Shown in pieces: positions 2 through 27,571 of a stretch of DNA of 45,416 nt. The DNA is taken from positions 1 to 45,416 of the forward strand of contig JAIOPX010000031.1 in the NCBI GenBank assembly GCA_021413705.1, in the 5' to 3' direction. The notes beneath the pieces were generated by a model. It searched no databases, was not told where the DNA came from, and was given only the letters and a program-made list of their open reading frames with translations. The stretch comes from Planctomycetota bacterium (lineage in GTDB: Bacteria; Planctomycetota; Planctomycetia; Pirellulales; UBA7805). Every line of letters starts with the position of its first letter. Positions within the stretch are counted from its first letter, which is position 1. The translations under genes and the position numbers were made by a program.

Positions 2-3000
2 GTCTTGTACATCGTGTACGTGGTGACGACAGGCTCCAGCACGTACACCGATACATTCAAGGTCGATCGCTACGATGCCACCAACTCCCTCATCGGCTCG
101 ACCATCACGGTGGATTCCGCGACCGACTCTTATCCCTATGGCTTGGGAACGGCTACGATCGGCGCCGACGAGGATGGCAGTTTTGTCGTGGCCTGGACTC
201 GGATCACCGAGGACGTTCCCACGGAAATCCTCTTCCACCTTCGCACTCAACGCTACACCTCCGGCGGCGCCACCGTGGGAAGCGCTGCGGAAATCGACAC
301 TGTCGACGGCACGGTCCTGGCTATGGAAGCGGAGAGCGACGCGGCAGGGAATCTTGTCGTCTCCTGGAATAACTTGGACTGGGATGATTTTGGAGCGTTT
401 GGCATCAAGGCGGTAGCCATCAATCCGGCCGGAGCTGCGGGAACTCCCGTCCTGCTCTCTGGAACGCCGGGAACACCCGAAGCAGTTGTGTCCAATCTGA
501 TTCTTACGCACGAGTGGATGTATAGCGGTTCGAAAGTCCACGTGTTGCAGGATGGGCGGCTGTTCGTCACCTACAAGGCGACCCAATACGAATCGGGTGA
601 GATGATCAGCAGTAAGGTTTTAGGCCGTTATTTCAATGCTGCGGGCACGCCGCTGGGCGAGGCATTCGATATTGCAGCCAGTCCAAACTATCGAGATGGC
701 TTCGCGTCCGTGGCGGGCAACGGATACGGAAGCATGCTGGTAGCCTGGAACGACAGCCCGGAAACTGCCGATACCTCCCCCCCGGTCAGTCGCGATGCTT
801 CGCAATCCGCCGTGATCGCCCGGTTCATTGGCCCGCAGGCGAGTCCCGCCTACAGCGTCGATAGCGACAGCGTGGGCTTTAAGCCGTTGTCGATTTACAC
901 CCGGCCGATCAGCGTGGAGGTGGCGACGGGGCACGTCGTGTTCCATACCGACCGCGGGCCGGATGGCCAGGGCGATGGCATCCTGCCGGTCTACCGCCAG
1001 ACGAGTGACTTCAACCCGATCGTGTCGGTCGATTACGTGGTCCCCGTCGGGCAGACCACGCCCAGCCTGTTGGAGGTCAAGCTGAAGTTCGCGGGGCACG
1101 ACAATGCCGAGTCGGTGTTCTACAGCCTGGCGGGCGTGCAACCCGGGCAGGTGGCCCGGCTGGTTCTTCAAGCGGACCGGCGCGATCTGCCGACCGGTCG
1201 TTACAACTACCAGGTGGAAGTCATCGAGCATCGCGGCGAGGAGGAGAGCAAGCCAAAACTGCTGACCGGCGCGGCGGACATCGTCAACCGCCGCGACAGC
1301 GAGTTCGGCGTCGGCTGGTGGCTCGATAGCCTCGACCGGATCGTAACCGGCGGGGACGGCTACTACGATGGCCACGACGGGGGCGGCCGGGGCGTGCTGC
1401 TGGTCCGGGGCGACGGCACGACCGGCTGGTTCGCCGAGAACAGCGACGGCGGCTACGACACTCCCGCCGGCAGTTTCACCACTCTGGTCAAGAACATCGG
1501 CGGCGACTTCACGCTCACGCACACCGATGGCACGGAAGACAAGTTCCTGTCTGACGGCCGACTCGACAAACGCACCGATCGCAATGGCAACGTCATCGAC
1601 TATGAGTACGACACGGCGGACGTCAATTCCAACGGCGTGCAAAACGAACTCAAATGGATTAAGGACATCTACGGCCTGTCCACCACGTACACCTACGCCG
1701 GCGGTCGCTTGGACTATGTCACCGACTTCGCCGACCGGGTGACCGATTTCCAGATCGGCACGACGGGAGACACCACGGGCTATGTCAACAAGATCGTCGA
1801 GACCGACCCGGACGGCGCGGGCGAATTGACAGCCCCTGAGACGGATTTCACCTACTACGTAGGCTCCTCCTGGGACGGCGATCTCTTCCAGGGTCTGCTG
1901 CATACGATCACCACGCCCGGGATCCAGACCCCGTCGGGCGTGCAGCGTCCCGTCACTACGATCCTCTACGATGCCGCCGGGCGGTTCGATTCGGCTACCA
2001 GTGGAGACGGCACGACTTGGGAACTGACGGCGGCTCAGACCATCGGCCTGGCCACCGGCTCGACGGACGAATCGCCGGTAGCAGCCGTCACACCCGACCA
2101 GATCAAGGCGACTTACAAGAACGAACGCAACTATGTCTCGACCTACACGGTCGATCGGTTCGGGTATCAAACATCAACGACCGATCCTCTCAGCCATACC
2201 TGGAAATATTCGCGAGATTCCAATGGCCTGATTCGCCGCAAGACGGAACCCGCCGGCGCCGGCGGCACGGCCAATCTCGGCCCGTTGGTCACCAGTTACC
2301 GCTACGACGACGTGGGCAATCTACTCAAGGCCACCTATCCTCAAGCAACTCTCAGCACCAGCGATCCGGCGGGTACGCTAATCAGCGAAACGTGGGAGTA
2401 TTACGGCGTAGACAAGTTCTATCAACTGAAGAAGCACACAGACCAACGCGGCTACGTCACTCACTACGAATTGACCGACGACGACCGCAACGTCGAGGAG
2501 ATTCGTCAGCAGGTCGATATTGCTTCCACAACGTATGTCAGCGATGACGCTACGAAGTGGATCACGACCCGATTTGAGTATACGACAGCCGCCACTACAC
2601 CCGGGACGGATTTGCCCGGCGGGCTGGTGACTTCAACGGTGGTGGGCTATGGAACTGACGATGCGGTGGAGACGATCTACGACTATTACCAGAACGGCGT
2701 TAACGGTGCGGTTGCATCCGAGCATGGCTTGCTAGCGTCGATTACGTCCGCGTACGACACGGCTGTCGAATCGACCACGTACCATATCTACGATGTGAGG
2801 CGTAATCCGCTCGTGGTAACCAACGATCCGTTTCTCCTGGGCGAAGCGGGAGAATCACTCGGCGCTCTGGAGCGGACGGTCGAGTATGACTACGACAATC
2901 TCAATCGGCTGACTCGCGAAATCGGCTTGGCCACTGCCGATCACGACGCACCGGCCATCGATTACGAATATGACGCCGAAGGAAATCTGATATCGGTCGA

Positions 3001-6000
3001 CGATCCGGAAGGCGCGGAGGTCTATTACGATTACGATGCCATGGCACGGCTGGTTAGAACACGGCTCCCCGAACCGGTAGGCCACGCCTCGACCGATCAG
3101 CACCGGCCGGAGACGGTACTCGTGTACGACGCGGCCGGGAATCTGTTTCAGGAAAAAGTCCTGGTCACGGCCGGAGCTAGCCCGGAGCTAAACGTCTACC
3201 GCGTGACGACGCACGATTACGATGCGCGCAATCTGCGGATCAAGACGACGCTTCCCGCGCCCGGCTACACGGCCGCCGACGCGAAGCTTCCGTCTAATTC
3301 CGGCCAGAACATTCAGCCGGTTATACGCTACACGCACGACAGCGCCGGCAATGTGGCGTTCCAGAGTGATCCGCGATTCGGGGCCGATCCGAATGCTACC
3401 ATCGGCACCCATTACACCTACGACTCGCTCCACCGAGTGACGAGCGTCAAAACGCCCAAGCCGACCGGCGCGGCCACGGATCCGATCACGACGTATGTCT
3501 ATTTCGACGACGGGCTGGTCAAGGAGATCCAATCGCCGGGCCCCAACGGCACGGTCACAACTCAATTCACGTACGACGGCTTGGGACGGGTAGTCAAGAA
3601 GGTGGACCCTGAAGCGGGAGGCTCGAACAACACGCAACTCACGACCCTCTACACCTATGATAGCCGCAGCAACGTCAAGTCCGTTCAAGAATGGCAGGAC
3701 GAGGATGAGGACCTGTCGCGCACCACAAATACGTACTACGACGAATTGAATCGGGTTATTGCGGTGGACGGCCCCGACGCCGACGGTGAACACCTCGGCG
3801 TTTCCATGTATTACGTCCACAATGTGGCAGGTGAAGTTTCGGCCATGCTGGCGTTTGCCGGCAACGTCGATGAAGACGACGTGGAGGATAACCGGATCAC
3901 GATTGAAGAACTCAACGATCGGATGGCGGCCGTGCAGGCGCAAACCGACCGCAACAACATCGCTCAGAAGACGACCTACGTCTACGACAAGCTCGGGCGA
4001 GTCAAGGAGACCTTGGGGCCGGCGCCAGGGTCTGTGCAGACCTTTGCCACTTACGATATCCGAGGCAACCTCACGCAACAAGAAATTCGGTTTTACGACA
4101 CGGATATTTCGGATGACCCGGTTCAGGTCTCGCTGATCACTCTTACGCAGTACGACGCCTTGGGCCGTCCCTGGAAAGTTCAAGGCCCGATCGTTTCGGG
4201 CAGCGATCGCACTGAAACGCAGATCGCCTACAACGTCGATGGCACGGTCAGCCAACAGAAAGTCAAGAATCCCAATGACGCTGACGGCTGGTCTACAACG
4301 ATTTTTGGATACGACGGTTTGGGGCGGGTTGATACGACCCTCACCGAAGATGCAGCCAATATTGCCGGGTCCGGCTACGTGACGACGACCGTGTGGCGCG
4401 ACGCGCTGGGAAACATTACCCGGCTCAAAGAGGCCACGGGATTGGAAACGCACACGAGGTACGATGCGGCTGGGATGGTGAAGTGGCAGGACGTGCAACG
4501 CGAGCAAGCACGGATTGGATCGCAGAATCATTCCAATATGTTCCTGCGCACGGAATATACCTATAAGCCCTCGGGTCACGTGGCCACGCAGAAACAGCAG
4601 GCTCTAGACGGCACCAAGGGAGTGGTATTGGATCAGTATGGCAATGGTACAAGCTACACGTACGACGATCTGGGCCACGTCAAAGAGCAGGCGCAGGATT
4701 TGGCGTCCGGCGGCCAGTCGGTCACTAAGTTCGATTACAATGTTTTCGGCGCGGTCACGAAAGTGACTGATCCCCAGCAAAACGTCACGACCTACGAGGT
4801 GGACAATCTCGGCCGGGCGACGAGTGAAACTGTAACCCACGCCGAAGCGGCGGCAGCGGGGACGAGGACTTTTGCTTACGATTCTTTCGGACATCTCCTG
4901 GATGCCACGGACCGTAACGACAAGACCACGCAGTTCACCTACGACAATCTTGGCCATCGTGTGCGCGAAGAATGGGTGGATGGGAATTATGCCAAGGACT
5001 ATATTTTCTCCGCGCTGGGGGAACTCAAGCAGGCCAAGAACACAGACTCCACAGGTATCGTCTCTCAATACGACTACACCTATGACGCAGGGAGGCGTCT
5101 TGAGTTGTCTCGGCAGCAGATTCGGCCGCTGGATTCGGCAATCGTTGACTTCATTTACGAGCACGATCTACTGGGCAACGTCAGCTCAGTGACCGCTGAT
5201 CTAGCAAACGCGGCCGATGAGTTCGTTAACAGCTATCAGTATGACAACGTGGGCCGCTTGAAAGGGGCCAGCCAGTTGGCCGCCCCTGGTGGAGGCGGTC
5301 AAGTCAAGTCCAAGACGGTGACGCTCGACCACCGCTATGACGGCCATGCCCTGGCCACGCGGACGCGCCGGTATGACAATAGCACGGCGACGGGAACCGT
5401 CACTGCTTCCACGCTTCAGCGGACGCAGTTTGGCGGTGGGGTCACTTACGTCGAGCATTTCAAGAACGATCTCTCGCCTGGCGACGCCACTGGGACATCG
5501 TACCAGCCTGAGAGCAAAACGATCGAATTGCAGATTCTGGCGCACGACCCGCGCGGCTTGGTGGCTCTCAAGTCAAGTTCCATCTATGACATTGGCTATC
5601 CGGACCTCCGAAAGACTACGGCGGTAGCTCACAAGTACGACCCGTTCGGTCAGTTGAAAGAGGTCAAGGTGACCGCACCCAACGGCACCGCCTCTACCCA
5701 GGAGTTCAAATACGACGCCAATGGCAATCCCATCAATGGAAGCGTTTCAGGCGATTACAACCAACTCCTCCAGGACAAGACGCATGCCTACGAGTACGAC
5801 AAAGAAGGGAATACCGAATTCCGCTGGACGTACGGCTGGCTGACGGAGAGCGTTTCGCCCCCCAATGACGACAAGCTTGAGACGGTCGAGCGGACGTGGA
5901 AAGCCGGAGCCTATCGACTCACGTTCGACGGACTCCTGTTTGACAATAACACGTTTGTGGCTAATTGGGACGAGGACGATGGGCTGGCCGTAGAGATTCG

Positions 6001-7930
6001 CATCGGCAGCACCGTCGTTCACACGATCGAAAATCTGTCGATCGTCTGGAACAGCCAGATCGGAAAGTGGGTGCCCGTGGTTCCGGAACCCATCTGGATT
6101 ACGCTAGCCGATGATATTGCGTCTTCGAAAATGATCGTGGATTTCGACTATCGGATCATAACGATCTTTACGCCCGACATTACGACCGGATCGTCCTACC
6201 ATGTGGACAAGGTCAAGGGACTGGATGTGTTGACCTGGGACCGGGCTAACCGTCTCACGCAGGTAGCAAACTACAGCGACATCAACACGGTGGGAACGGT
6301 ACTGGAACGGATGTTCCCGGTCACCGGCACGGAGCTTGGCCTGCGGAAGTACTTCGTCAAGGAATACACCTACGACGCGCTCGATCGGCCGATCGCCGAG
6401 GCGCTCACGACCTTGACCGAGACGACGCCGGGTAATCTCACGGAAGCCACCGAGCGGAAGGCTTTTGTGTGGGAGCGGGACCAGCGGGTCCTGGACTACG
6501 ACGACCAGACCTCCGGCGATTCGTTGCTGGTGACCCGGTTCTACGCGCCGGGCATGGACAACATCCTGGCGGCCCAGGCTCCCGTCAGCCCGGGCTCTTC
6601 GACCGACGTGACGCTGTGGGGGATGACGGATCAGCAGAAGAGCACGATCGCGGTGGCCTATTATGCGCTCAATGAACTAAGTGAGCCGCAACTCTACGTG
6701 GAGCGAGTGAGCTACAATGCCCAGGGCCAGGTCGGATTCTCGACCGACCTGGGCACGCCCCCTTATAACGTGATCACGACTCCCGCCGTTCACCTGGGTG
6801 CGTTCTACACCGGCCGCGAGCACGACTTTGCCACCGGCTTCGACAACTTCCGCAGCCGCCCGTATGACCCCGGCAGCGGACGGTTTCTCAGCCAAGACTC
6901 GATCGGACTGGCCAGCGGTGACACGAACCCGTACCGGTTTGGATTCAATTCGCATCCCAATGCGACGGACCCCAGCGGGCATGTTGCACAGGTTATTTGG
7001 GGAGCCGCCATAGGCGCAGGGGTGTATGGTATACAAGCCGCGATTACGGGAGAGTGGGATTGGGTGGATTTTGGAATCAGCGTTGGAGCCGGGGCACTCA
7101 CTGGGGGCGTATCGGCCTTTGTGGGCCGCGGGCTGATCTTGGGAGTCACTGCAGGTAGAGGATTGGCGATGGGCGCTGCAGCCGCCGAGATGACTGGAGT
7201 AGGCGCCTATCTCACCAGCGCAGCCATCGGCGGCGCAAGCGGCGCAGCTGGTGGTTATGCAGGTGGATGGTTCCAGGGGTATGCAACCACGCTCAATCAT
7301 GGGGGTAGCGAACTTGAAGCCTGGAGCAACGCAAATGCCAGTGGCAGAAGCGGCGCGTTGTGGGGACTCGCTTTGGGTACGCTTGGTGGTGGTGTGCAGG
7401 GTCTGAGAGGCGAACTAGGGACAGCGCCACCCTCTGGTCCCGCTCCGGCACTGGTCGTCAGCAACGGTGGCCTAATGCTTCCGGGGCGATTGGGTGCCAG
7501 CAGCCTAGCATCCGCTGCCGCAGGCTGGCCGTCACTTAGCACGTTCGGCGGTTTGCTGGGCTCGAGCATGGCCCTGAGCACTAGAATGGATAATGCGGAT
7601 GAAGCGATAGAAGAAGCAAATTTGCCCGGAATGAGGGAACGAAGTCGAGGGATCGCTTCTCAACAAGGACGAGAATTTCGCACAGATCAATTGGAAATCT
7701 ATGAATTTGATCAGAATGCACCACGACATGTACGAGGTTGGCTGGAAAACGAACGTCGTATGATTGAACAAGGCAGGAGACCTTACGCGCGTAATCCACC
7801 CGGCTACGAACAGGCACACGGTCGAACAACGCCCGCGAGAGAGGGTTATGATTATTCTAATTCTCGTCTTCAAGGTACCGATCTAAATGACCTTGAAGAA
7901 AGGGTCCGATTGCAACAGGGTAAACCATAA
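2..7930 (+). CDS. Giant RHS/YD-repeat protein with C-terminal toxin tip (5' partial)
   Basis: The reading frame is open at the window edge, so the N-terminus and export signal are not visible. About 2640 residues are seen. Residues 1-280 have beta-rich repeats of the type DEDGSFVVAWTR and AAGNLVVSWNN. A linker leads to EFGVGWWLDSLDRI near 435, where the RHS shell starts. Dozens of YD repeats (YEYD, YTYDSLHR, FTYDGLGRV) run from about 500 to 2260. The conserved core end RSRPYDPGSGRFLSQDS lies near 2280-2300, then DPSGH. A Gly/Ala-rich hydrophobic stretch (2320-2500) precedes the variable tip. The last 75 residues, with RGWLENERR, PPGYEQAHGRTTPAREGYDY and SRLQGTDLNDLEERV, look like a nuclease-type polymorphic toxin; from memory they resemble the Ntox8 group, unverified. 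RHS shells encapsulate such toxins for contact-dependent delivery. The gene that follows by 1 nt is the expected immunity partner. Confidence 0.93.
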   Translation, partial: VLYIVYVVTTGSSTYTDTFKVDRYDATNSLIGSTITVDSATDSYPYGLGTATIGADEDGSFVVAWTRITEDVPTEILFHLRTQRYTSGGATVGSAAEIDTVDGTVLAMEAESDAAGNLVVSWNNLDWDDFGAFGIKAVAINPAGAAGTPVLLSGTPGTPEAVVSNLILTHEWMYSGSKVHVLQDGRLFVTYKATQYESGEMISSKVLGRYFNAAGTPLGEAFDIAASPNYRDGFASVAGNGYGSMLVAWNDSPETADTSPPVSRDASQSAVIARFIGPQASPAYSVDSDSVGFKPLSIYTRPISVEVATGHVVFHTDRGPDGQGDGILPVYRQTSDFNPIVSVDYVVPVGQTTPSLLEVKLKFAGHDNAESVFYSLAGVQPGQVARLVLQADRRDLPTGRYNYQVEVIEHRGEEESKPKLLTGAADIVNRRDSEFGVGWWLDSLDRIVTGGDGYYDGHDGGGRGVLLVRGDGTTGWFAENSDGGYDTPAGSFTTLVKNIGGDFTLTHTDGTEDKFLSDGRLDKRTDRNGNVIDYEYDTADVNSNGVQNELKWIKDIYGLSTTYTYAGGRLDYVTDFADRVTDFQIGTTGDTTGYVNKIVETDPDGAGELTAPETDFTYYVGSSWDGDLFQGLLHTITTPGIQTPSGVQRPVTTILYDAAGRFDSATSGDGTTWELTAAQTIGLATGSTDESPVAAVTPDQIKATYKNERNYVSTYTVDRFGYQTSTTDPLSHTWKYSRDSNGLIRRKTEPAGAGGTANLGPLVTSYRYDDVGNLLKATYPQATLSTSDPAGTLISETWEYYGVDKFYQLKKHTDQRGYVTHYELTDDDRNVEEIRQQVDIASTTYVSDDATKWITTRFEYTTAATTPGTDLPGGLVTSTVVGYGTDDAVETIYDYYQNGVNGAVASEHGLLASITSAYDTAVESTTYHIYDVRRNPLVVTNDPFLLGEAGESLGALERTVEYDYDNLNRLTREIGLATADHDAPAIDYEYDAEGNLISVDDPEGAEVYYDYDAMARLVRTRLPEPVGHASTDQHRPETVLVYDAAGNLFQEKVLVTAGASPELNVYRVTTHDYDARNLRIKTTLPAPGYTAADAKLPSNSGQNIQPVIRYTHDSAGNVAFQSDPRFGADPNATIGTHYTYDSLHRVTSVKTPKPTGAATDPITTYVYFDDGLVKEIQSPGPNGTVTTQFTYDGLGRVVKKVDPEAGGSNNTQLTTLYTYDSRSNVKSVQEWQDEDEDLSRTTNTYYDELNRVIAVDGPDADGEHLGVSMYYVHNVAGEVSAMLAFAGNVDEDDVEDNRITIEELNDRMAAVQAQTDRNNIAQKTTYVYDKLGRVKETLGPAPGSVQTFATYDIRGNLTQQEIRFYDTDISDDPVQVSLITLTQYDALGRPWKVQGPIVSGSDRTETQIAYNVDGTVSQQKVKNPNDADGWSTTIFGYDGLGRVDTTLTEDAANIAGSGYVTTTVWRDALGNITRLKEATGLETHTRYDAAGMVKWQDVQREQARIGSQNHSNMFLRTEYTYKPSGHVATQKQQALDGTKGVVLDQYGNGTSYTYDDLGHVKEQAQDLASGGQSVTKFDYNVFGAVTKVTDPQQNVTTYEVDNLGRATSETVTHAEAAAAGTRTFAYDSFGHLLDATDRNDKTTQFTYDNLGHRVREEWVDGNYAKDYIFSALGELKQAKNTDSTGIVSQYDYTYDAGRRLELSRQQIRPLDSAIVDFIYEHDLLGNVSSVTADLANAADEFVNSYQYDNVGRLKGASQLAAPGGGGQVKSKTVTLDHRYDGHALATRTRRYDNSTATGTVTASTLQRTQFGGGVTYVEHFKNDLSPGDATGTSYQPESKTIELQILAHDPRGLVALKSSSIYDIGYPDLRKTTAVAHKYDPFGQLKEVKVTAPNGTASTQEFKYDANGNPINGSVSGDYNQLLQDKTHAYEYDKEGNTEFRWTYGWLTESVSPPNDDKLETVERTWKAGAYRLTFDGLLFDNNTFVANWDEDDGLAVEIRIGSTVVHTIENLSIVWNSQIGKWVPVVPEPIWITLADDIASSKMIVDFDYRIITIFTPDITTGSSYHVDKVKGLDVLTWDRANRLTQVANYSDINTVGTVLERMFPVTGTELGLRKYFVKEYTYDALDRPIAEALTTLTETTPGNLTEATERKAFVWERDQRVLDYDDQTSGDSLLVTRFYAPGMDNILAAQAPVSPGSSTDVTLWGMTDQQKSTIAVAYYALNELSEPQLYVERVSYNAQGQVGFSTDLGTPPYNVITTPAVHLGAFYTGREHDFATGFDNFRSRPYDPGSGRFLSQDSIGLASGDTNPYRFGFNSHPNATDPSGHVAQVIWGAAIGAGVYGIQAAITGEWDWVDFGISVGAGALTGGVSAFVGRGLILGVTAGRGLAMGAAAAEMTGVGAYLTSAAIGGASGAAGGYAGGWFQGYATTLNHGGSELEAWSNANASGRSGALWGLALGTLGGGVQGLRGELGTAPPSGPAPALVVSNGGLMLPGRLGASSLASAAAGWPSLSTFGGLLGSSMALSTRMDNADEAIEEANLPGMRERSRGIASQQGREFRTDQLEIYEFDQNAPRHVRGWLENERRMIEQGRRPYARNPPGYEQAHGRTTPAREGYDYSNSRLQGTDLNDLEERVRLQQGKP

Positions 7931-7931
7931 C

Positions 7932-8465
7932 ATGTCAAATGAACTTCCAGAACTTCGTAACCTATTGTTAGAGGGCATACGGTTATCACAGCAAGGGTCT
8001 TATCAACGGCGCGCTCCAGCACAGAAGGCACGGCCATATTTGATTAGTGCTCGCGACAGACTGCAGCAGTTTGTTACCGATAATCCGCGCGATGTAGAGG
8101 GGTGGCGTCTCTTATCGCAAGCCCAAGAATGCCTTCTCGCGTATCGCGATGCGATCTCTAGCTTAGAAAAAAGTTTGCTAGTGGCCGGAACTGGTGATCG
8201 GCGTGATCTTCGGCGATTGGCCCTACTTCGTCAAGCTGCTGATGAGTGGAGCCAGTTTCCACTAACCTTAAGGCAAATTGAGAACCTGGGGCAATTTCTC
8301 CTGAGCAATGGTGCTCATGAGGAACCACAGGGGCGGTCGATGCGTTGGACAAAACAGTGGTTAATTGACAATCACCATCAAGATCCCACTGAGGTCATTA
8401 ACGCATTCAGTAAACGAGGAGCATACACTGATTTTCAAGTCTTCCACAACGTGGTGCATGGGTAA
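7932..8465 (+). CDS. Putative immunity protein for the upstream RHS toxin, TPR-like
   Basis: 177 residues starting at an ATG one base after the rhs stop codon, which implies translational coupling. The frame is open for 15 more codons upstream inside rhs, but the ATG at 7932 is the sensible start. The protein is soluble and helical with no signal peptide. Residues 28-85 (ARDRLQQFV, DVEGWRLLSQAQECLL, YRDAISSLEKSLL) read like one or two TPR units. The C-terminal part ends WLIDNHHQDP, FSKRGAYTDFQVFHNVV. Base composition is more AT-rich than the rhs core, as usual for tip/immunity modules. The immunity role is inferred from position only. A short open stretch in another frame just after the stop (about 8467-8574) could be a lost tail. 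Confidence 0.7.
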   Translation: MSNELPELRNLLLEGIRLSQQGSYQRRAPAQKARPYLISARDRLQQFVTDNPRDVEGWRLLSQAQECLLAYRDAISSLEKSLLVAGTGDRRDLRRLALLRQAADEWSQFPLTLRQIENLGQFLLSNGAHEEPQGRSMRWTKQWLIDNHHQDPTEVINAFSKRGAYTDFQVFHNVVHG

Positions 8466-8586
8466 AGTCATTGGCGCATTGGCAATTGTCACAACAACTC
8501 GATCAAGTGTACTAGTTCAACGAAAGTTGTCGTCAACAGAATTTGTGGATAGGTATAACCAGTACTTAAACTAAATAACTGGTGAT

Positions 8587-9174
8587 GTGGGCATTGGCTT
8601 CGCCAGCTCGACGCCGAAACATTTCCTTGGCAATTTGATTGCGGGTCCAGCGTCCCCTCGGCGCGCACTGTCAGCGTGGAGCCAGCGACTCGGGCACGAC
8701 GTTTCCCACTTCGACGACTTCCGCAGCCGTCCGTATGATCCTGGCAGCGGACGATTTCTCAGCCAAGACTCGATCGGACTGGCCAGCGGTGACACGAATC
8801 CGTATCGGTTTGGATTCAATTCGCATCCTAATGCGACGGACCCCAGCGGGCATGTCATACGCTGGTGTGCAAACCCGCGCGTCACGCAGGAACTTGCGCC
8901 GGGCGAAACGAGAACCCCGCAGGAAAATGCTGCTGCACGTCAATTTTTCGAGAACCATCGAGACAAGGCGAGAGCATGGTGGGAACAGCGGACCGGCCGA
9001 GAGTGGCCGAAGTCTTCAACGCACGATCACCATCCGCGCGAGCTTGTCAATGGTGGTGACCCGCTTCTGGTCGAGCCGGGATACGGTGCTTCAACTTCTG
9101 AGCATTCTAGAGAAGTTTTCAAGGAACAGGGTAGGATAGGTGGGATAAGATCGGGCGAAGTGCGCAGGAAGTAA
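8587..9174 (+). CDS. Orphan (displaced) RHS tip with HNH-like nuclease domain
   Basis: 195 residues from a GTG codon with no convincing ribosome-binding site. The first 40 residues are unlike RHS. Residues 41-90 then repeat the RHS core end of the upstream gene almost exactly (RSRPYDPGSGRFLSQDS, DTNPYRFGFNSHPNATDPSG), and the match continues at DNA level: 8709-8855 against 6838-6984, about 10 differences in 147 bases. After DPSGH the sequence diverges completely into a different tip, with ARAWWEQRTGREWPK and THDHHPRELVNGGDPLLVEP. The His-rich segment followed by GGDPLLVEPG resembles HNH/endonuclease VII-type toxin ends. This is the classic arrangement of a silent RHS-CT cassette that could recombine onto the full-length gene through the shared core. 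Whether it is translated alone is doubtful. Confidence 0.75.
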   Translation: MGIGFASSTPKHFLGNLIAGPASPRRALSAWSQRLGHDVSHFDDFRSRPYDPGSGRFLSQDSIGLASGDTNPYRFGFNSHPNATDPSGHVIRWCANPRVTQELAPGETRTPQENAAARQFFENHRDKARAWWEQRTGREWPKSSTHDHHPRELVNGGDPLLVEPGYGASTSEHSREVFKEQGRIGGIRSGEVRRK

Positions 9175-9188
9175 GGAAAGGGATACCT

Positions 9189-9991
9189 ATGTTTGAATGG
9201 CTCGTGGACGAAATGATGAAGGTCCACACTCGCAAATTCTACCGTGTGGACGGTCCGTTACGAATCGACAATCGCGAGCTAGTGGAGCGATCCGAGCTTC
9301 CTATACCGCCGTCGTACAAGAGCTTCATCCTCCAGTTCGGCAACGCGAGCTTGTACCGGATAGGAGACCTATACCGTGTGCAGGTGTTTGCTAGCCCCTG
9401 TGCGGATGAAACCGAGGACGGCGAACCACGGCTTTGTTTTGGCCGAACAGAAGACACCTTCGCATATTTCAAAGAGTCTTTGATCGTTCTGGATGCAGAG
9501 AGTCCGGTGTTTGAATGGCACTACGAAGAGGAGGTTGAGAAGCAGACTGCCAATGGATTCGAGGAATGGATTAGAAGGCAGTGCGCAAGGGTGAGAAAGT
9601 ATTACACGAAGAAGGAGTGGCAGGAGATCGAGAAAGGGCCGCCAGCGTTCAGCGACCACGAAAAGAGGATCGTCGAAGCCCGCCGAAAGTTTCGTTGGCG
9701 CATAGTCGGGATAGGCAATAGCGGCGACATCCGGTTTGAGGTTTGCAACGGCTCGGAAATGGTTCTTCCCTTCTTGTCCATCGGCATTCGGGGGAGGATG
9801 CGTAGTTTTGATGACGCGCTAGACGGAGGGTATGGCTTCCCGTCGGGACAGTGCTTCCAGGGCACACGGCGGTAATCGAGAAGGATTGCTATAAAGATGT
9901 GGTCGATCCACAAGATGTGGTGGCGTATGAGAAATCCGACCCAGATCCAGAAGACCGGGACCGCTATTGGGAATTCAAACCTCTATACTAG
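9189..9991 (+). pseudogene. SUKH (SMI1/KNR4)-type immunity gene with a one-base frameshift
   Basis: The open frame runs 9189-9875 (228 residues) and starts 15 nt after the orphan tip stops. Its N-terminal half carries the SUKH pattern ELPIPPSYKSFILQFGNAS. At 9825-9832 the frame breaks. Reading on in the next frame gives a coherent tail: VWLPVGTVLPGHTAVIEKDC, YKDVVDPQDVVAYEK, DPDPEDRDRYWEFKPLY, then TAG at 9989-9991. One extra G in the GGG run at 9828-9830 would restore a 267-residue protein. The tail I recover is what SUKH proteins linked to RHS cassettes usually end with, so the frameshift is real relative to the family. It may be genuine decay of a silent cassette or a sequencing error in a short homopolymer. 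Partner: the tip at 8587-9174. Confidence 0.8.
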
Positions 9992-10319: not shown

Positions 10320-10563
10320 GGGGCCACACAGCTTTGAAAGCATCACGGACCGTTGATCCGTTTTTTTAGCCCAAGCCCCTGCTCGAAAAATCTCCGCGCA
10401 GCCTGTTGACACGGATTTATACATCCGTACACTTACTCCCTGTCCTGGGCATTTTCCCGGTTTCACGGCCCTTGGGGGAGGAAGCGTCATGGCTCGGCTG
10501 GTACGCGGAGATCTGTTCGATCCGGCGGAAGTTTCCGCTTTTCATTGCATGAGTCGCTGCGTG
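10320..10563 (+). repeat. Left end of RAYT-like element, copy 1
   Basis: This segment, from GGGGCCACACAGCTTTGAA to just past the first 25 codons of the transposase, is repeated in inverted orientation at 22578-22818. Shared landmarks are CTCGAAAAATCTCC, CAGCCTGTTGACACG, TTATACATC, GGGCA.TTTCCCGG and the gene start ATGGCTCGGCTGG. A GGGGGAGGAAGCGTC ribosome-binding region lies in front of the transposase ATG. Similarity in the non-coding leader points to a mobile unit, not merely a conserved gene. Confidence 0.75.
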
Positions 10564-11370
10564 CGACGCAGTTTTCTCTGCGGAGACGATCCCTACAGCG
10601 GCCGCAACTACGATCATCGCAAACCCTGGATCGAACAGCGGATCCAATTTCTGGCTGGGCAATTTGGGATCGATGTCTTGGGGTTCAGCATCTTGTCGAA
10701 CCACTTTCATATCGTCGTGCGCAACCGGCCCGACGTGGTGGCTACCTGGAGCGACACCGAAGTGGCTCGCCGCTGGTTGCACATCTGCCCGAAACGCAAA
10801 ACGCCTGCCGACTTGCCCGAGGAACCCAGTGAGGCGGAACTCGACACAATCCGCTGCCTCCCCGAGAAACTGGCCGAAATCCGCCTCCGCTTAAGCGACA
10901 TCAGTTGGCTGATGCGGATGATCGCCGAGCCGATCGCCCGGCAGGCCAACAAGGAGGATAATGTCCAGGGTCATTTCTGGCAGAGTCGCTTCCGCAGCGT
11001 TCGACTTTGCGATGAGGCGGCCGTGCTGGTCGCGATGGTGTATGCCGATCTCAACCCGATCCGCGCCGGCTTCGCCAGCATCCCGGTCGCCGAGTTCGGC
11101 TACCGCGGCGGGTGGGGGAGGTTCAACTCGCCGGTTCGCGGTTGTGCAGAGCCAGGGGGACGGCGATGGCGGTGCCGATGCCGGCGCCGATTACCGTGGG
11201 GCTCGTCAGGATGTTGCGGGCACGGAACATCTGGCCTCGCGCCAAATCTCCACCATAGACTTGCAGCGAGGGTTTCGCGCTCGGCGGGGCGGTGCCTTCC
11301 GACCACAGCCGGCACGGTGTCACGGCGTCGAGCGTGGCCAGGTTGTATTGGCCGCCTCGCAGGCCAGTGA
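10489..11370 (+). CDS. REP-associated (HUH/Y1-like) transposase, 3'-truncated with chimeric tail
   Basis: Starts at ATG 10489 with a strong GGAGG site. Residues 1-205 read as the planctomycete version of the IS200/RAYT-type transposase: FHCMSRCVRRSFLCGDD, IDVLGFSILSNHFHIVVRNR with the HxH metal-binding pair, RNRPDVVATWSD, VQGHFWQSRFRSVRLCDEAA, and YADLNPIRAGFA near the end of the catalytic domain. Known relatives cut single-stranded DNA at REP hairpins through a Tyr intermediate. After EFGYRGGWGR (about 11110) the reading frame runs antisense through the 3' end of the gene at 11123-11686, and the Arg/Cys-rich remainder is not credible. The protein is therefore truncated, losing the C-terminal region in which relatives carry a DYLELVDWTGR-like segment. 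A relic of exactly that segment lies at 27920-28330. Probably inactive. Confidence 0.8.
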   Translation: MARLVRGDLFDPAEVSAFHCMSRCVRRSFLCGDDPYSGRNYDHRKPWIEQRIQFLAGQFGIDVLGFSILSNHFHIVVRNRPDVVATWSDTEVARRWLHICPKRKTPADLPEEPSEAELDTIRCLPEKLAEIRLRLSDISWLMRMIAEPIARQANKEDNVQGHFWQSRFRSVRLCDEAAVLVAMVYADLNPIRAGFASIPVAEFGYRGGWGRFNSPVRGCAEPGGRRWRCRCRRRLPWGSSGCCGHGTSGLAPNLHHRLAARVSRSAGRCLPTTAGTVSRRRAWPGCIGRLAGQ

Positions 11371-22577: not shown

Positions 22578-22818
22578 CGCAGCGACTCATGCAATGAAAA
22601 GCGGAGACTTCCGCCGGATCAAACAGATCACCGCGTACCAGCCGAGCCATGACGCTTCCGCCCCCGATGGCCGTGAAACCGGGAAATTGCCCAGGACAAG
22701 GGACAAGTGTACAGATGTATAAATACGTGTCAACAGGCTGAGAGGAGATTTTTCGAGTAGGGTTTGGGCCGAGATAACGCATCAACCATCCGTGATGTCT
22801 TCAAAGCTGTGTGGCCCC
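22578..22818 (-). mobile_element. Left-end fragment of RAYT-like element, copy 2
   Basis: Inverted copy of 10320-10563. On the minus strand it starts GGGGCCACACAGCTTTGAA, passes through CTCGAAAAATCTCC, CAGCCTGTTGACACG and ATACATCTGTACACTTG, and includes the transposase start MARLVRGDLFDPAEVSAFHC followed by MSRC. Similarity stops after that codon (CESHKL here, CVRRSF in copy 1). Only the leader and about 24 codons remain, so no active transposase is encoded. Confidence 0.8.
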
Positions 22819-22825
22819 TTGGTTT

Positions 22826-23131
22826 CCCTTCGAACTCGCCCGTCGCTTGGAGTTGCTGGCTGCCGCAGCAAGGGCACTGCTCCAGTCGCACGTCGTGCCG
22901 TTGCACTTGATCCGGCGGAAGTTCGTCCAACTTGGGAGGCTCGCGAAACACCCCGGGGTGCTGGCGATGCCGTTTTGTGCGGCGATCTTGGCGCTTGGTT
23001 TTAGGCGGCGACTGGCGATTGGCCTGCGGCTTGTACCCCTTGCGCCGCAGTCGCTCGACCTCGGCTTCCAGCTCCGCGACCCGCGCCAACAACGCGGCCA
23101 CCTGCGTTTGAAGTGCTGCGACATCTTGCAT
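22826..23131 (-). pseudogene. IS66-like transposase, N-terminal fragment
   Basis: About 100 codons are homologous. The start MQDVAALQTQVAALLARVAE, LEAEVERLRRKGYK forms the N-terminal coiled coil. A basic region with PPKTKRQDRRTKRHRQHPGV and a zinc-binding CPCCGSQQLQATGEFE follow; these are typical of the DNA-binding N-terminus of IS66-family transposases. At about 22822 the sequence switches into the RAYT element end and the DDE catalytic domain is missing. On its other side the fragment joins a broken LRR gene at 23132. Confidence 0.75.
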
Positions 23132-23286
23132 GATGCCTCAGCAACTGCTTCATTCTGCTGTCTCGCCTTTTGTGACCACCGGGCAAGATATATTGCAATT
23201 ACTGCCGTTAAAATGAGCGCCGTTCTGATGCGAAACTGAAAGGCTTTTCGCACTATATCGCTAGCAGTATTGGTGGAACGAGACAT
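23132..23286 (-). pseudogene. N-terminal remnant of a membrane-anchored LRR protein
   Basis: Starting at ATG 23286 (a TTG two codons earlier is possible) the frame encodes MSRSTNTASDIVRKAFQFRI, RTALILTAVIAIYLARWSQK, ARQQNEAVAE. This matches the start of the two intact LRR proteins nearby: SMRTLLLLTAGFAVWFAWYS, HEATQQKEAVA at 23557-24249 and STRTLLIVTTLIAIGIAWWS, YKARRQREVIS at 26735-27571. After about 50 codons the frame enters the IS66-like fragment and all homology to LRR proteins is lost. The leucine-rich repeats themselves are absent, so the gene is a relic. Confidence 0.72.
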
Positions 23287-23556
23287 TGTCAAACTAATCT
23301 TACTTTGGGCTAAAGTCTCAGGTTACACTCACTGCAACCCATCGCTAAAAAGGGTTAGCGCGGCATAAATGGCATGACATTCATTCTGTCAGTGTGTAAT
23401 GGATTTTATACTTCATTTGCTTCGGTCCAAATTGCCAAAGATCGATCTCGGCATTGCTGACGATGCCGCTGCCCACGATTTACTCCTCTGTCTTGGTGGT
23501 CTCATACCTCCTGTTCTTACGGCACAGGCTTTCGATGGACTGGGACACCATGACGC
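23287..23556. other. Short intergenic region upstream of the LRR relic
   Basis: 270 bases with no gene. An AACCC..GGGTT hairpin (about 23337-23356, with loop ATCGCTAAAA) is the only structure noted; it could terminate the operon that ends at 23557. Confidence 0.4.
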
Positions 23557-24249
23557 TCACGGTTCGATTAGTTTCTTGCGATGTGTCCAATGGATCGTGC
23601 AATTCGGCAACGTGTTTTGTAGCCGTGCGACACCGGCAGCGGTAACTTGTTGCGTACTGTCGAGAGATAGTACTTGCAATGCCTTCAGCCCTTCCAAGTG
23701 TTCCAGGCCCGCATCGGTAATATTATTGTTATCGCTGTTGACATGAAGCACCCGCAGTGCCGTGAGCCCTTTGACATTTTCCAGCCCGGTGTCGGTGATA
23801 TTCGATAAATAGAGAGAGAGTAATGTAAGTTCTCTTAGTCCCTTGAGGTTCTTTAGGCCATCGTCAGTGATATCCTGTCCAATGATTTCAAGCCCTTTGA
23901 GTTTCGTGAGGACTTTGATGTGTTTCAGTTCCGTATCGGTAATGTTCGGTTTGAAGAGAGAGAGCCGTTCCACACTGGCGAAATAATCTATCCCTAGCGA
24001 ATCGACGATTCCCACTGGCCAATGGCGGGGCTGCTTGATGCCTTCAGCCTGAAAATCGTAAGCAACCTCACCTCCCAATTTGGTGATACGTGCCACTGCC
24101 TCCTTTTGTTGTGTAGCCTCATGCGAGTACCAAGCAAACCACACCGCAAAGCCTGCCGTGAGTAACAACAACGTCCGCATGCTATATTGCACTCGACGAT
24201 GCTTCGGTGTTGCCTTCGTTTCCATTGCACTCTCGAAAAGTCCACTCAT
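23557..24249 (-). CDS. Membrane-anchored leucine-rich-repeat protein, coupled to an RHS tip
   Basis: 230 residues from ATG 24249, which overlaps the stop of the upstream gene as ATGA. Residues 24-42 form one hydrophobic anchor (MRTLLLLTAGFAVWFAWYS). After a linker (GGEVAYDFQ, SLGIDYFASVERLSLF) come about five ITD-type LRR units: PNITDTELKHIKVLTKLKGL, QDITDDGLKNLKGLRELTLL, NITDTGLENVKGLTALRVLH, NNITDAGLEHLEGLKALQVL, then a cap VAAGVARLQN-like end with NTLPNCTIHW. Such cysteine-poor repeats form a solenoid for protein binding. The ATGA overlap makes it a candidate immunity or accessory partner of the RHS tip encoded just upstream; this is inference. A close paralogue lies at 26735-27571. Confidence 0.85.
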   Translation of the reverse strand: MSGLFESAMETKATPKHRRVQYSMRTLLLLTAGFAVWFAWYSHEATQQKEAVARITKLGGEVAYDFQAEGIKQPRHWPVGIVDSLGIDYFASVERLSLFKPNITDTELKHIKVLTKLKGLEIIGQDITDDGLKNLKGLRELTLLSLYLSNITDTGLENVKGLTALRVLHVNSDNNNITDAGLEHLEGLKALQVLSLDSTQQVTAAGVARLQNTLPNCTIHWTHRKKLIEP

Positions 24250-25562
24250 CGTTTTAGGTATTTTGCAAAACCTGTTGTCGGCGAAGTCGGTGGCAGTTGG
24301 CCGTAAGGGTATCCGGTTGCACTCACGAATGTTCCACTTGGGCTGATAACAATCTCTGTGACGGGTTCCGTCCACTCGATCCTGATGTCATAGTCCTTAC
24401 CCCCTCTCACTCCCGATGCGCGGTCAGTTAATAACTTGAATTTAGTATCACCCTCACCTGAGTTCATGTCTATCTTGTCGTTCCACACATATGTTAAATT
24501 ATACTTGATTGCTCGGTTCTGGCCTTTTTGGCCATCTATGGACCATTGTCCGATTATTTCAAATGCCTCGTCAGTTCCATGCAGGTAGCCATAGCCGATT
24601 GGATGATAAGTGCTTGCAGCTATTGACCCTCTGAATTTTAGGTGAATTTGTCCACTAGCAGGCGCATCGTGTTCAACTGTAAGTGATTTCGCATGACCAA
24701 ATAATTTGTTTTTCACCATAGCAGCCACATCATAGCTAGCTTCCATGTATGTGGTCCATCTCTGATCATTTTTGATCTTGTACGGCGTACCGTCTCCGTA
24801 TAACCACCGCTCCAAGAGTTCTTTACCAGCCCAATCCGTTTCTGACAATTCTACCCCTACATTTATTGCCACCTGTGCAACGTCCTCACCGGTCAAGATT
24901 TCTGCATTTTTCTTCTGCGTGAAAATAGACTGTAATTCAAAAGCTGCTTGGGCCTCTACTCCCGCCGGATCAGGCTGGATCGGATACCCTTTCTCATCAT
25001 ATCCCCGTTCTTGCAACCACCGTATTTGATATTCCCAATCCGATATGAATTTTCTTTCTAGGTCGGTAATCTGCTTCCCTTTTGCAAGTTTATCTTTAAT
25101 CGCATCTACTTTTATTTTCTGATCGGCAATCACGTCTGGTTTAGGCTCAGTTCCAAGAGGATCAGTAGAATTCAGAGATTCATTGAATACATACCGATAT
25201 AAATTCGCATCTTCCGCCTCAAACCCGATGGGATCTTCACTGATGAATCGTCCCACGACCGGATCAAAATACCGGGCTCGGTAGAAGTGGAGTCCGGTCT
25301 CTTCATCCCGCTCACGTCCAGTATAAGCAAAGAGATGATCAAGCGCTGTGTTCTCCTCGTGGGTAATATTGCCGAACGAGTCATATTCCAGGTAATTCTC
25401 AATCGTCGTCGCATTCTTGCCAGCGTCGTAGGCGGCAAGCTGGCGGACACTGCCTAGGTTGTTGCGAGTGTCGTCAACGCAGAGCGCGTCGACCGAGTGG
25501 TGCTCGCGCACATCATTGAACCTATCGCGAAATGTACTATTTTGATTGGTTCTGCGCACCAT
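24246..25562 (-). CDS. RHS core-end protein with unrecognised C-terminal domain
   Basis: About 438 residues. ATG 25568 is only one base from AAGGAG, so the second ATG (25562, seven bases away) is preferred. Residues 35-145 are an RHS core end: DNLG-like NNLGSVRQLAAYD, YLEYDSFGNITHEENT, LFAYTGRERDEETGLHFYRA, RYFDPVVGRFISEDPIGFEA, LYRYVFNESLNSTDPLG. The upstream YD-repeat shell is missing, so this is a stand-alone tip. The 290-residue C-terminal part is unknown to me; it has a charged helical segment (150-215) and a beta-rich part with GQIHLKFRGSI, YNLTYVWNDKIDMNSGEG and GKDYDIRIEWTEPVTEIVIS. It lies 20 nt after a SirB1-like gene and overlaps an LRR gene, giving a three-gene operon. It belongs to a different RHS lineage from the gene at 2-7930. 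Confidence 0.85.
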   Translation of the reverse strand: MVRRTNQNSTFRDRFNDVREHHSVDALCVDDTRNNLGSVRQLAAYDAGKNATTIENYLEYDSFGNITHEENTALDHLFAYTGRERDEETGLHFYRARYFDPVVGRFISEDPIGFEAEDANLYRYVFNESLNSTDPLGTEPKPDVIADQKIKVDAIKDKLAKGKQITDLERKFISDWEYQIRWLQERGYDEKGYPIQPDPAGVEAQAAFELQSIFTQKKNAEILTGEDVAQVAINVGVELSETDWAGKELLERWLYGDGTPYKIKNDQRWTTYMEASYDVAAMVKNKLFGHAKSLTVEHDAPASGQIHLKFRGSIAASTYHPIGYGYLHGTDEAFEIIGQWSIDGQKGQNRAIKYNLTYVWNDKIDMNSGEGDTKFKLLTDRASGVRGGKDYDIRIEWTEPVTEIVISPSGTFVSATGYPYGQLPPTSPTTGFAKYLKR

Positions 25563-25582
25563 ATACATACTCCTTGTGTTGA

Positions 25583-26398
25583 CTACTTCGAGCGTAATCC
25601 TCTGGTCTCACACATCACAGCATCAACTGCTGACATGGCGCGGAACCCGGCGTAGTTGGGGTCTTGGGGATGAAGTTTACAGGCTTGGTCATACGCTCCC
25701 GCCGCTTCAGCCAGCCGGCCGTTGGCGTGCAGGCAGTGACCGCGGGCCGCCAGGAACGCCGCCAGTTCCTCGCGGGGTATGAGCGAAGAGAGGTAGTGAC
25801 TGGCAGCTACCTCGGCCTCTGTGATCGTGTGAGGCCACTGCCGATAATGCTCGTCTGGGTGGCAATTTAGGCCCTGGCTGGTGGCCTCAATGTTGAAACG
25901 CTCCCCAGTTGCTGGATCGTCCCAGCGGAGAAATAGATGAGCCTTGGCCTGAACCAGTCGCAGTGGATAGCCCAGCCGGCGTCCAATTGCCAAGTACAGC
26001 ACGGGCATTGAAACACATGTCCCGCCATGGCCGGTGAGCAAGCCGTGTACGAATAGATCGCGCGGGTCGGCGTAGTCTGGATTGTGGATCCGCTCGGGAT
26101 TGTACTGCACGCCTAGATTGCGTTGCAGCACAGTGACCATTACCAAGATTCGGTAATATGCCTCGGAATGGTTGTAATCTTCTGGCTGTTGATCGAAGCG
26201 GCTCTGAAGACGACGGGTGCCGTATGCGACCAAGTCGGCCCATTGATCCTTCTTTGTGCAGCAGGCTGCAATGTCCAGATCGTCCGTTCCTGGAAGCCCG
26301 ACCGCGCACGACAAGTTCAATTCGACAATATCAATGGTCGCTAAGGAAGTGTTTGAGTGATCAGCAAACTGATGGAAACTCGGAACCGTAGTGATCAT
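25583..26398 (-). CDS. SirB1/transglutaminase-like protein with TPR-like C-terminus
   Basis: 271 residues from ATG 26398; the ribosome-binding site is weak. The core (80-175) has the SirB1/transglutaminase-like layout: DLFVHGLLTGHGGTCVSMPV, LYLAIGRRLGYPLRLVQAKA, HLFLRWDDPATGERFNIEAT. The Cys (128), His (154) and the Asn/Glu after it (169-171) occupy the positions of the papain-like triad. The C-terminal 60 residues (LAAFLAARGHCLHANGRLAE, AAGAYDQACKLHPQDPNYAG) form a TPR-like hairpin. Similar proteins in planctomycetes are uncharacterised. Here the gene leads an operon with the RHS tip and LRR genes. Whether it processes the RHS product or is unrelated is unknown. Confidence 0.82.
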   Translation of the reverse strand: MITTVPSFHQFADHSNTSLATIDIVELNLSCAVGLPGTDDLDIAACCTKKDQWADLVAYGTRRLQSRFDQQPEDYNHSEAYYRILVMVTVLQRNLGVQYNPERIHNPDYADPRDLFVHGLLTGHGGTCVSMPVLYLAIGRRLGYPLRLVQAKAHLFLRWDDPATGERFNIEATSQGLNCHPDEHYRQWPHTITEAEVAASHYLSSLIPREELAAFLAARGHCLHANGRLAEAAGAYDQACKLHPQDPNYAGFRAMSAVDAVMCETRGLRSK

Positions 26399-26734: not shown

Positions 26735-27571
26735 ATGTTTCTATTCAGTTTCACCAATCGCGACACCGACGCCAAACGCAACTGCCGTTGGTTACAATTC
26801 AGCACACGGACATTGCTGATTGTTACCACGCTTATCGCAATTGGAATTGCGTGGTGGTCCTATAAGGCACGCCGACAACGCGAGGTCATTTCGGAAATCA
26901 AAACAGTAGGCGGCATATTTCATTACGACTATGAGAAAAACGGCATTTACCGGCGATCCCCATCGTATCAATGGTTGACAGATCATTTCGGCTCCGACTA
27001 CTTTGCCAACGTTTCAGTTGTCTGGCTGAGCGAGACACCTATCACTGACACTCAGCTCGAACAGCTTACAGTTCTAACTGCGCTGAAATCGCTCGGTCTT
27101 GCTGACACTAAAATCACCGACACTGGGCTGCAGCATATAAAATCATTTGTAATGATCGAAGTACTCAATTTCAGCAACACACAAATCACTGACGCCGGAA
27201 TAGAGAATCTCCAGCGACTAAGTCAATTGAAAAGCCTCACTTTGGACGATACCAAAGTCACGGATAACGGCCTGAAATTCCTAAATCGCCTAACTGGATT
27301 AAAGGATTTGTCCCTTAACAACACTCAGGTCACTGACGTCGGCTTGGCGCATCTCAATGAGCTTACCTCGCTAAGATATCTCGCACTAGGCGGTACACAG
27401 ATCACCGATGCCGGAATTGAGCATCTCAAGCACATGACAACAATTCAGATCCTCACCTTAACGGATACTCGCGTTACTAACCTTGGAATTGCCGAATTAA
27501 AAAAAGCATTGCCAAACTGTGAAATCAATTGCCGACGGAAGCCATTGCGTAGATCCTCGCCCTCGCCATAG
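26735..27571 (+). CDS. Membrane-anchored leucine-rich-repeat protein (paralogue)
   Basis: 278 residues from ATG 26735 (weak AGGA close upstream). A basic N-terminus (KRNCRWLQF) leads into one anchor, TRTLLIVTTLIAIGIAWWSY at 24-43. The linker keeps GSDYFANVSVVWLSE, the counterpart of GIDYFASVERLSLF in the minus-strand paralogue. Seven ITD/VTD-type LRR units follow, for example TPITDTQLEQLTVLTALKSL, TKITDTGLQHIKSF, TQITDAGIENLQRLSQLKSL, TKVTDNGLKFLNRLTGLKDL, TQVTDVGLAHLNELTSLRYL and TQITDAGIEHLKHMTTIQIL, with the cap LKKALPNCEINC. No enzymatic domain. Together with 23557-24249 and the relic at 23132-23286 it forms a local family around the RHS tip. Confidence 0.88.
   Translation: MFLFSFTNRDTDAKRNCRWLQFSTRTLLIVTTLIAIGIAWWSYKARRQREVISEIKTVGGIFHYDYEKNGIYRRSPSYQWLTDHFGSDYFANVSVVWLSETPITDTQLEQLTVLTALKSLGLADTKITDTGLQHIKSFVMIEVLNFSNTQITDAGIENLQRLSQLKSLTLDDTKVTDNGLKFLNRLTGLKDLSLNNTQVTDVGLAHLNELTSLRYLALGGTQITDAGIEHLKHMTTIQILTLTDTRVTNLGIAELKKALPNCEINCRRKPLRRSSPSP

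Follow-up and report, generated by a model that had tools for sequence, protein, structure and literature searches.

A three-gene operon within the window analyzed here (a 45,416-nt stretch of planctomycete DNA) can be read, with a modest preference over the alternatives considered below, as a polymorphic toxin module consisting of a SirB1-like enzyme, a ColM-like toxin borne on an RHS tip without a cage, and an LRR antidote—with the enzyme acting on the tip. No experiment supports this interpretation. The existence of the module, the conservation of its gene order, the variability of its toxin end, the toxin domains in sister copies and the conserved residues of the enzyme are nevertheless shown by sequence.

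All three open reading frames (SirB1-like, RHS tip and LRR) are encoded on the minus strand, and their organization as an operon was confirmed (Table 1). The likely start of the tip is its second ATG, at position 25562 and 20 nt past the SirB1 stop codon, and the ATG of the LRR gene overlaps the TGA of the tip as ATGA. A preliminary description, made without database searches, had portrayed the locus as three tightly packed genes on one strand with a 20-nt gap and an ATGA overlap, and the second gene as an RHS core end without its shell; both claims held. When the window was searched by tblastn with the full RHS protein of contig C78, the nearest in the same genome, only the last ~104 core residues were matched, and no significant RHS cage sequence or frameshifted remnant was detected in any frame upstream of the tip.

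Table 1. Coordinates, within the window, of the features of the three-gene module and of the adjacent LRR sequences.
Feature	Position	Strand	Details
SirB1-like gene	25583..26398	-	271 aa; Transglut_core2 (PF13369, E 4e-10) and one TPR
RHS core-end tip with C-terminal toxin	24246..25568	-	440 aa (438 from ATG 25562); TIGR03696, E 4e-23, positions 1-75
AAGGAG ribosome-binding site	25570..25575	-	7 nt before the tip ATG at 25562; from sequence
Retained RHS core end, NNLGSVRQ...STDPLG	25152..25463	-	~104 residues; from blastp
Pre-toxin segment	24855..25151	-	AlphaFold2: first half two confident helices, second half of low confidence
ColM-like toxin domain	24306..24854	-	Motifs TDWAG, W..YM, IGYGYLHGT and WNDKID; homologs in several phyla; Foldseek
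LRR gene, proposed immunity protein	23557..24249	-	230 aa from ATG; PF12799, E 3e-8; LRR recurrent in this slot
Single N-terminal hydrophobic segment of the LRR protein	24127..24174	-	Follows a basic KHRR stretch; from sequence
Second anchored LRR gene	26735..27571	+	Upstream of the SirB1-like gene, in divergent orientation; 38% identical to its paralogue, the partner LRR
Remnant of a third LRR anchor (FQFRIRTALILTAV...)	22801..23292	-	Match at 23134-23274; frame enters unrelated, possibly transposon-derived sequence

The pairing of the SirB1-like gene with the tip is no coincidence: across the class, this gene is a near-obligate partner of the tip. Homologs of it were present in 7 of 40 close genomes and in 54 of 398 genomes sampled from the class (own genome included). 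We built a tip profile from 89 RHS tips, none of which came from the SirB1 loci, and ran it on the ORFs around 63 SirB1-like genes: an RHS tip was the next downstream same-strand ORF at 58 of these 63 loci, with gaps mostly between -8 and +60 nt. A tip was recognized by eye at two further loci (L242 and L281), and none could be seen beside the SirB1-like gene at L260, L273 and L279. Among more distant, generic Transglut_core2 genes of the same phylum, which served as a negative control, no gene had a tip next to it (0/24). Each of the three closest SirB1 relatives outside the class was accompanied by a tip, detected by profile in two cases and by eye in the third. An alignment of 57 SirB1-like sequences revealed strict or near-strict conservation of C128 (56/56), H154 (56/57), N169 (56/56) and D182 (56/56), which are inferred to be the catalytic triad residues; E171 was likewise invariant or nearly so. 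The SirB1-like protein of the window lacks an N-terminal signal and, in nearly all copies of the module, a secretion signal is found on neither the SirB1-like protein nor the tip. We also observed variants of the SirB1 module (L242, L297 and L299) in which the mini-tip has a Sec-type signal peptide, and the SirB1-like proteins of L242 and L299 have an N-terminal hydrophobic segment as well—a combination that might hint at work in the same compartment.

The typical partners of the SirB1-like gene are 'mini-tips', which comprise the last ~30–40 residues of the RHS core followed by a variable C-terminus, the cage being absent. A typical mini-tip opens at its own methionine, with the consensus M[YF]DPxxGRWxxEDPIGFxAGDxNLYRYVGNxPTNxTDPSGL, and this stub holds two DPxG motifs together with a PxxxxDPxGL consensus. 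In full RHS effectors, this motif region (PxxxxDPxG[W/L/F], with two catalytic Asp residues) constitutes an aspartyl autoprotease and its cleavage site (PMC8765631). Both DPxG motifs are present in the tip of the window; its SLNSTDPLGT sequence departs from PxxxxDPxG[W/L/F], a consensus matched by the sister mini-tips (PTNxTDPSGL). The C-termini of mini-tips differ between loci, with a mean column identity of 8% (n = 52), and include a CDI EC869-like nuclease, WHH, AHH, Colicin-DNase, papain-fold toxin 2, phospholipase A2 and TGL, each assigned at one locus and some with weak E-values. The occurrence of recognizable toxin domains among these C-termini therefore identifies the arrangement as a polymorphic toxin module. 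The tip of the window is unusually long, and over its ~104 core residues it shares 64% identity with the final part of the contig C78 RHS protein in the same genome; an exchange with a full-length RHS gene is inferred as its plausible origin.

An alternative explanation holds that the locus is a silent, displaced RHS tip/immunity cassette—recombination raw material of the kind represented by orphan rhs/cdiA tips—and that the SirB1-like gene merely marks its landing place. The absence of both cage and signal is in keeping with this idea, as are the length of the window tip compared with other mini-tips and its 64% identity with the final residues of a complete RHS protein encoded in the same genome, as if it had been swapped in. 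A canonical-looking orphan tip cassette moreover lies 14 kb away (8587–9875). Against a silent cassette stand the 58/63 pairing across dozens of genera, the start codon and ribosome-binding site of the tip itself, the overlapping genes or short gaps, and the conservation of the enzyme residues, and we regard this explanation as unlikely.

The surroundings of the module offer several further observations. The plus strand of the window (positions 5–9875) encodes a full-length RHS protein (2641 aa), followed by a TPR-like gene and then by the orphan tip cassette. The orphan tip (8587–9174, +) has the same junction, DSIGLASGDTNPYRFGFNSHPNATDPSGHV, as the full-length RHS protein and an HNH-like DHHP end, and it precedes a gene of SUKH/SMI1-like appearance (9189–9875, +); a REP-associated (Y1-type) transposase-like gene is located just past this cassette (10489–11370, +). 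Other genomes of the order contain long arrays of RHS orphan tips, with several per 10–20 kb (L113–L115 in G011, L095 in G391 and L101 in G016).

The toxin end of the tip, listed as unknown in the preliminary description, turned out to resemble colicin M in its predicted fold. Sequence searches of Pfam, NCBIfam, PHROGs, PADLOC and the PDB yielded no match for the toxin domain (NCBIfam recognized the RHS core end only), and the C-terminal 302 residues of the tip had one weak relative in the class. Scanning genome contigs with the single sequence was unsuccessful; an alignment of the window domain with its weak class relative succeeded, and led to 11 toxin-domain loci in Enterococcus, Clostridia, other Firmicutes, Nocardia and a cyanobacterium, as well as one additional locus within the phylum. 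The domain is thus part of a toxin family that is absent from Pfam and NCBIfam and spread over several phyla. It mostly occupies the end of RHS proteins, among them those of Enterococcus and Clostridia—in Nocardia, the end of a WXG-type protein—and its homologs have in common the motifs D..G, W..YM, GY.LHGT and W.D..D.

AlphaFold2 modeled the window domain with a pLDDT of 72.5 and the Enterococcus domain (L169) with a pLDDT of 82. When compared with the PDB by Foldseek, all matches below an E-value of 1e-3, i.e., 8 of 8 for the window model and 14 of 14 for the L169 model, were colicin M, syringacin M, PaeM or pectocin M, with probabilities of 0.98–1.00 and best E-values of 1e-4 (window) and 3e-6 (L169). 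Sequence identities to these structures ranged from 10% to 21%, and the TM-scores were modest (0.3–0.5). The ColM motif DxYDx5HR is only partly kept, with D-x-x-D retained but neither the Tyr nor the His-Arg pair, and the Pfam Colicin_M profile (PF14859) did not match the domain; a scan of 255 genomes with this profile returned nothing, and since its controls were also silent, it is uninformative. Because of the incomplete motif and the lack of a Pfam match, we refer to the domain as ColM-like in fold and probable target, and not as a member of the ColM family. The agreement of two models with colicin M-type bacteriocins nonetheless makes lipid II the probable target. In addition, by reading the sequences, the gene that follows the toxin was seen to code for a small lipoprotein or a membrane-anchored protein at 10 of the 11 cross-phylum toxin loci, which points to a target outside the cytoplasm; the known ColM immunity proteins are diverse and membrane-associated (PMC5821083). 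The toxin of the window is therefore likely to be a ColM-like domain acting on lipid II outside the cytoplasmic membrane, with the fold predicted by modeling and both toxicity and lipid II cleavage inferred.

In the toxin loci of other phyla (L168–L178), at least two apparently unrelated families of small lipoproteins follow the toxin, i.e., an SPSGKY type and a rumen Clostridia type, and no significant Pfam family was assigned to the members scanned. TelC, the lipid II phosphatase of type VII systems, had been suspected on account of the membrane-type partners and was rejected: no match was found with a profile against PDB sequences, and Foldseek led to ColM.

The membrane-anchored LRR protein is likely the antidote of the toxin, although protection is inferred. 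RHS tips were found in 26 of 40 genomes of the order, and an LRR gene comes directly after 11 of the 126 tips with an intact ORF. With the own genome excluded, LRR genes accounted for 7 of 84 tip-downstream genes versus 5 of 341 other ORFs of the same regions (Fisher p = 0.003). Judged against the genome-wide LRR density, 7 such genes were observed after tips in eight other genomes where ~0.4 were expected, and 4 in the own genome where 0.23 were expected. The toxin ends differ among the eleven tip–LRR pairs. By reading, a hydrophobic or signal-like stretch is present at the start of ten of the eleven tip-adjacent LRR proteins (8 pass a numerical cut), the exception being a cytoplasmic-looking protein that follows an HNH-like toxin; for the LRR protein of the window, the positive-inside rule predicts an N-in anchor with the LRR outside. 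The SirB1–tip–LRR order, which the preliminary description had proposed to look for elsewhere, was identified in six other genomes (G016, G091, G215, G220, G393 and G408). In other SirB1 modules the third gene encodes WD40 propellers, lipoproteins or unknown proteins and, with LRR, WD40, lipoproteins and others sharing the third place, this position looks like a variable immunity slot. An expected excess of membrane-type third genes in SirB1 modules was absent (19/42, versus 41/91 after other RHS tips).

In two SirB1 modules (L269:1771-3402 and L271:3270-4331), the third gene encodes a WD40 beta-propeller that begins like a lipoprotein or with a membrane anchor, possibly another repeat-type immunity protein. 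Large RHS proteins of the same genome as the window, each with an anchored or signal-bearing LRR gene directly after it, were seen at L052 (C78), L059 (C183) and L055 (C209); the toxin end of the C78 protein has a metallopeptidase-like HEIVH motif.

It remains possible that the LRR protein does not act as the antidote and simply belongs to a large family of anchored LRR proteins, unrelated to the toxin and placed after the tip by chance. The LRR genes do form a large family, with dozens of similar genes in the genome, mostly away from RHS genes, and one lying divergently beside the locus. Against chance speak the frequency of LRR genes after RHS tips, far above expectation and with different toxins, the ATGA coupling, the LRR-filled slot in six other SirB1 modules, and the fact that a membrane-anchored, outward-facing partner is also typical of the toxin family elsewhere. 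The preliminary description had stated that its proposal would be refuted if the LRR gene occurred without an RHS tip in most genomes. This outcome is technically met, yet it makes a poor test, because different families are expected to fill an immunity slot. Its further statement, given to its knowledge only, that membrane-anchored LRR proteins are not a described immunity type needs correction as regards LRR proteins in general: Zhang et al. (2012, PMC3482391) had already listed 'Imm-LRR' immunity proteins in polyimmunity loci and next to toxins of the T5SS, so that LRR immunity is not new in itself. In the relevant sections of that study, planctomycetes are not listed for Imm-LRR and the membrane-anchored form is not mentioned.

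In the mechanism that we propose, the first gene would provide a SirB1-like enzyme of the papain/transglutaminase fold; the second, an RHS tip without a cage, in which the autoprotease region is retained and leads into a variable toxin at the C-terminus; and the third, the matching immunity protein, here an LRR protein anchored N-in that would place the antidote on the toxin's side of the membrane. The substrate of the enzyme would be the end of the RHS core, which it would cleave or transfer at the DPxG region (a weakly supported inference); this step would, in trans, mature the toxin or join it to a carrier, and so take the place of the cage present in cis in ordinary RHS proteins. Such an action on the stub fits the observation that nothing in the module is constant except the enzyme and the core-end stub. 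A bolder version, toward which we lean rather less than we lean away, would make the SirB1-like protein a dedicated trans-acting maturation or ligation enzyme that recognizes the stub, cleaves or transpeptidates at DPxG, and loads interchangeable toxins onto a carrier.

A different possibility is intracellular suicide or defense, in which the SirB1-like protein would be a sensor-protease releasing the mini-tip toxin within its own cell, by analogy with the protease-driven release of bacterial gasdermins. The adjacency of the enzyme to a cleavable toxin, the usual lack of leaders on both the SirB1-like protein and the tip, and the TPR beside the enzyme domain would suit such a role. We nevertheless deem it unlikely, since the third genes look like immunity genes and their products are often attached to the membrane, a ColM-type toxin has its target outside the cytoplasm, signal peptides occur on a few tips (L242, L297 and L299), and PADLOC did not match any of the three proteins. 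The polymorphic toxin reading has limits of its own: besides the lack of experiments, the ColM motif is partial, signals are absent from nearly all copies, the cleavage motif in the window is off consensus, membrane-type partners are no more frequent in SirB1 modules than after other RHS tips, and the majority of the LRR paralogues are not located near RHS genes. A toxin/immunity pair with an upstream processing or delivery factor, as put forward in the preliminary description, is still the reading best supported by the conserved gene order—with the toxic effect, the protective effect and the function of the SirB1-like protein all being inferred.

In the open-access literature searched, we found no description of SirB1 or Transglut_core2 with Rhs, nor of planctomycete RHS core proteins. 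Within the bounds of that search, the SirB1–tip(–LRR) arrangement is apparently undescribed and represents a variant within RHS-type polymorphic toxins; the earlier suggestion of an undescribed system thus held in part, for the architecture, whereas LRR immunity and RHS-type toxins were already known. If the proposed reading is correct, planctomycetes possess a widespread and apparently undescribed class of toxin modules in which the cage is absent and a separate enzyme nearly always present—raising the testable question of whether a partner in trans can replace the RHS cage. It would also imply a new toxin family that spans several phyla and probably targets a cell-wall precursor, and would assign a role to some of the numerous anchored LRR proteins that planctomycetes encode. 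The trans-acting enzyme version, if true, would amount to a delivery principle for polymorphic toxins without an RHS cocoon.

Among known systems, the module resembles the Rhs polymorphic toxins (T6SS RhsA/Tse5 type and TcC) in having two DPxG motifs in the core end, a C-terminal toxin that varies, and an immunity gene downstream. It differs from them in lacking the cocoon/YD-repeat shell, in the conserved SirB1-like gene in front, and in that typical partners keep no more than the last 30–40 core residues. With the colicin M family of lipid II-degrading bacteriocins, it shares the predicted toxin fold and diverse membrane-attached immunity partners; however, the window toxin is undetectable by sequence or Pfam, keeps DxYDx5HR in part, and belongs to a domain family that rides on RHS or WXG-type proteins and not on an import/receptor module. 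As with Imm-LRR (Zhang et al. 2012, PMC3482391), an LRR gene directly follows a polymorphic toxin gene, here recurrently, but the proteins observed here have an N-terminal membrane anchor and occur after RHS tips, in planctomycetes. The same study reports inactive transglutaminase domains of RHS toxins, which likewise link a transglutaminase-like domain to RHS; theirs are located in cis, after a signal peptide, and have lost the catalytic triad, whereas the domain described here is encoded by a separate gene, without a signal and with invariant Cys/His/Asn-Asp. Finally, orphan rhs/cdiA toxin–immunity cassettes also combine a short tip with an immunity gene in the absence of the main body, but the tip of the window has its own start (AAGGAG-7-ATG) and an obligate upstream partner.
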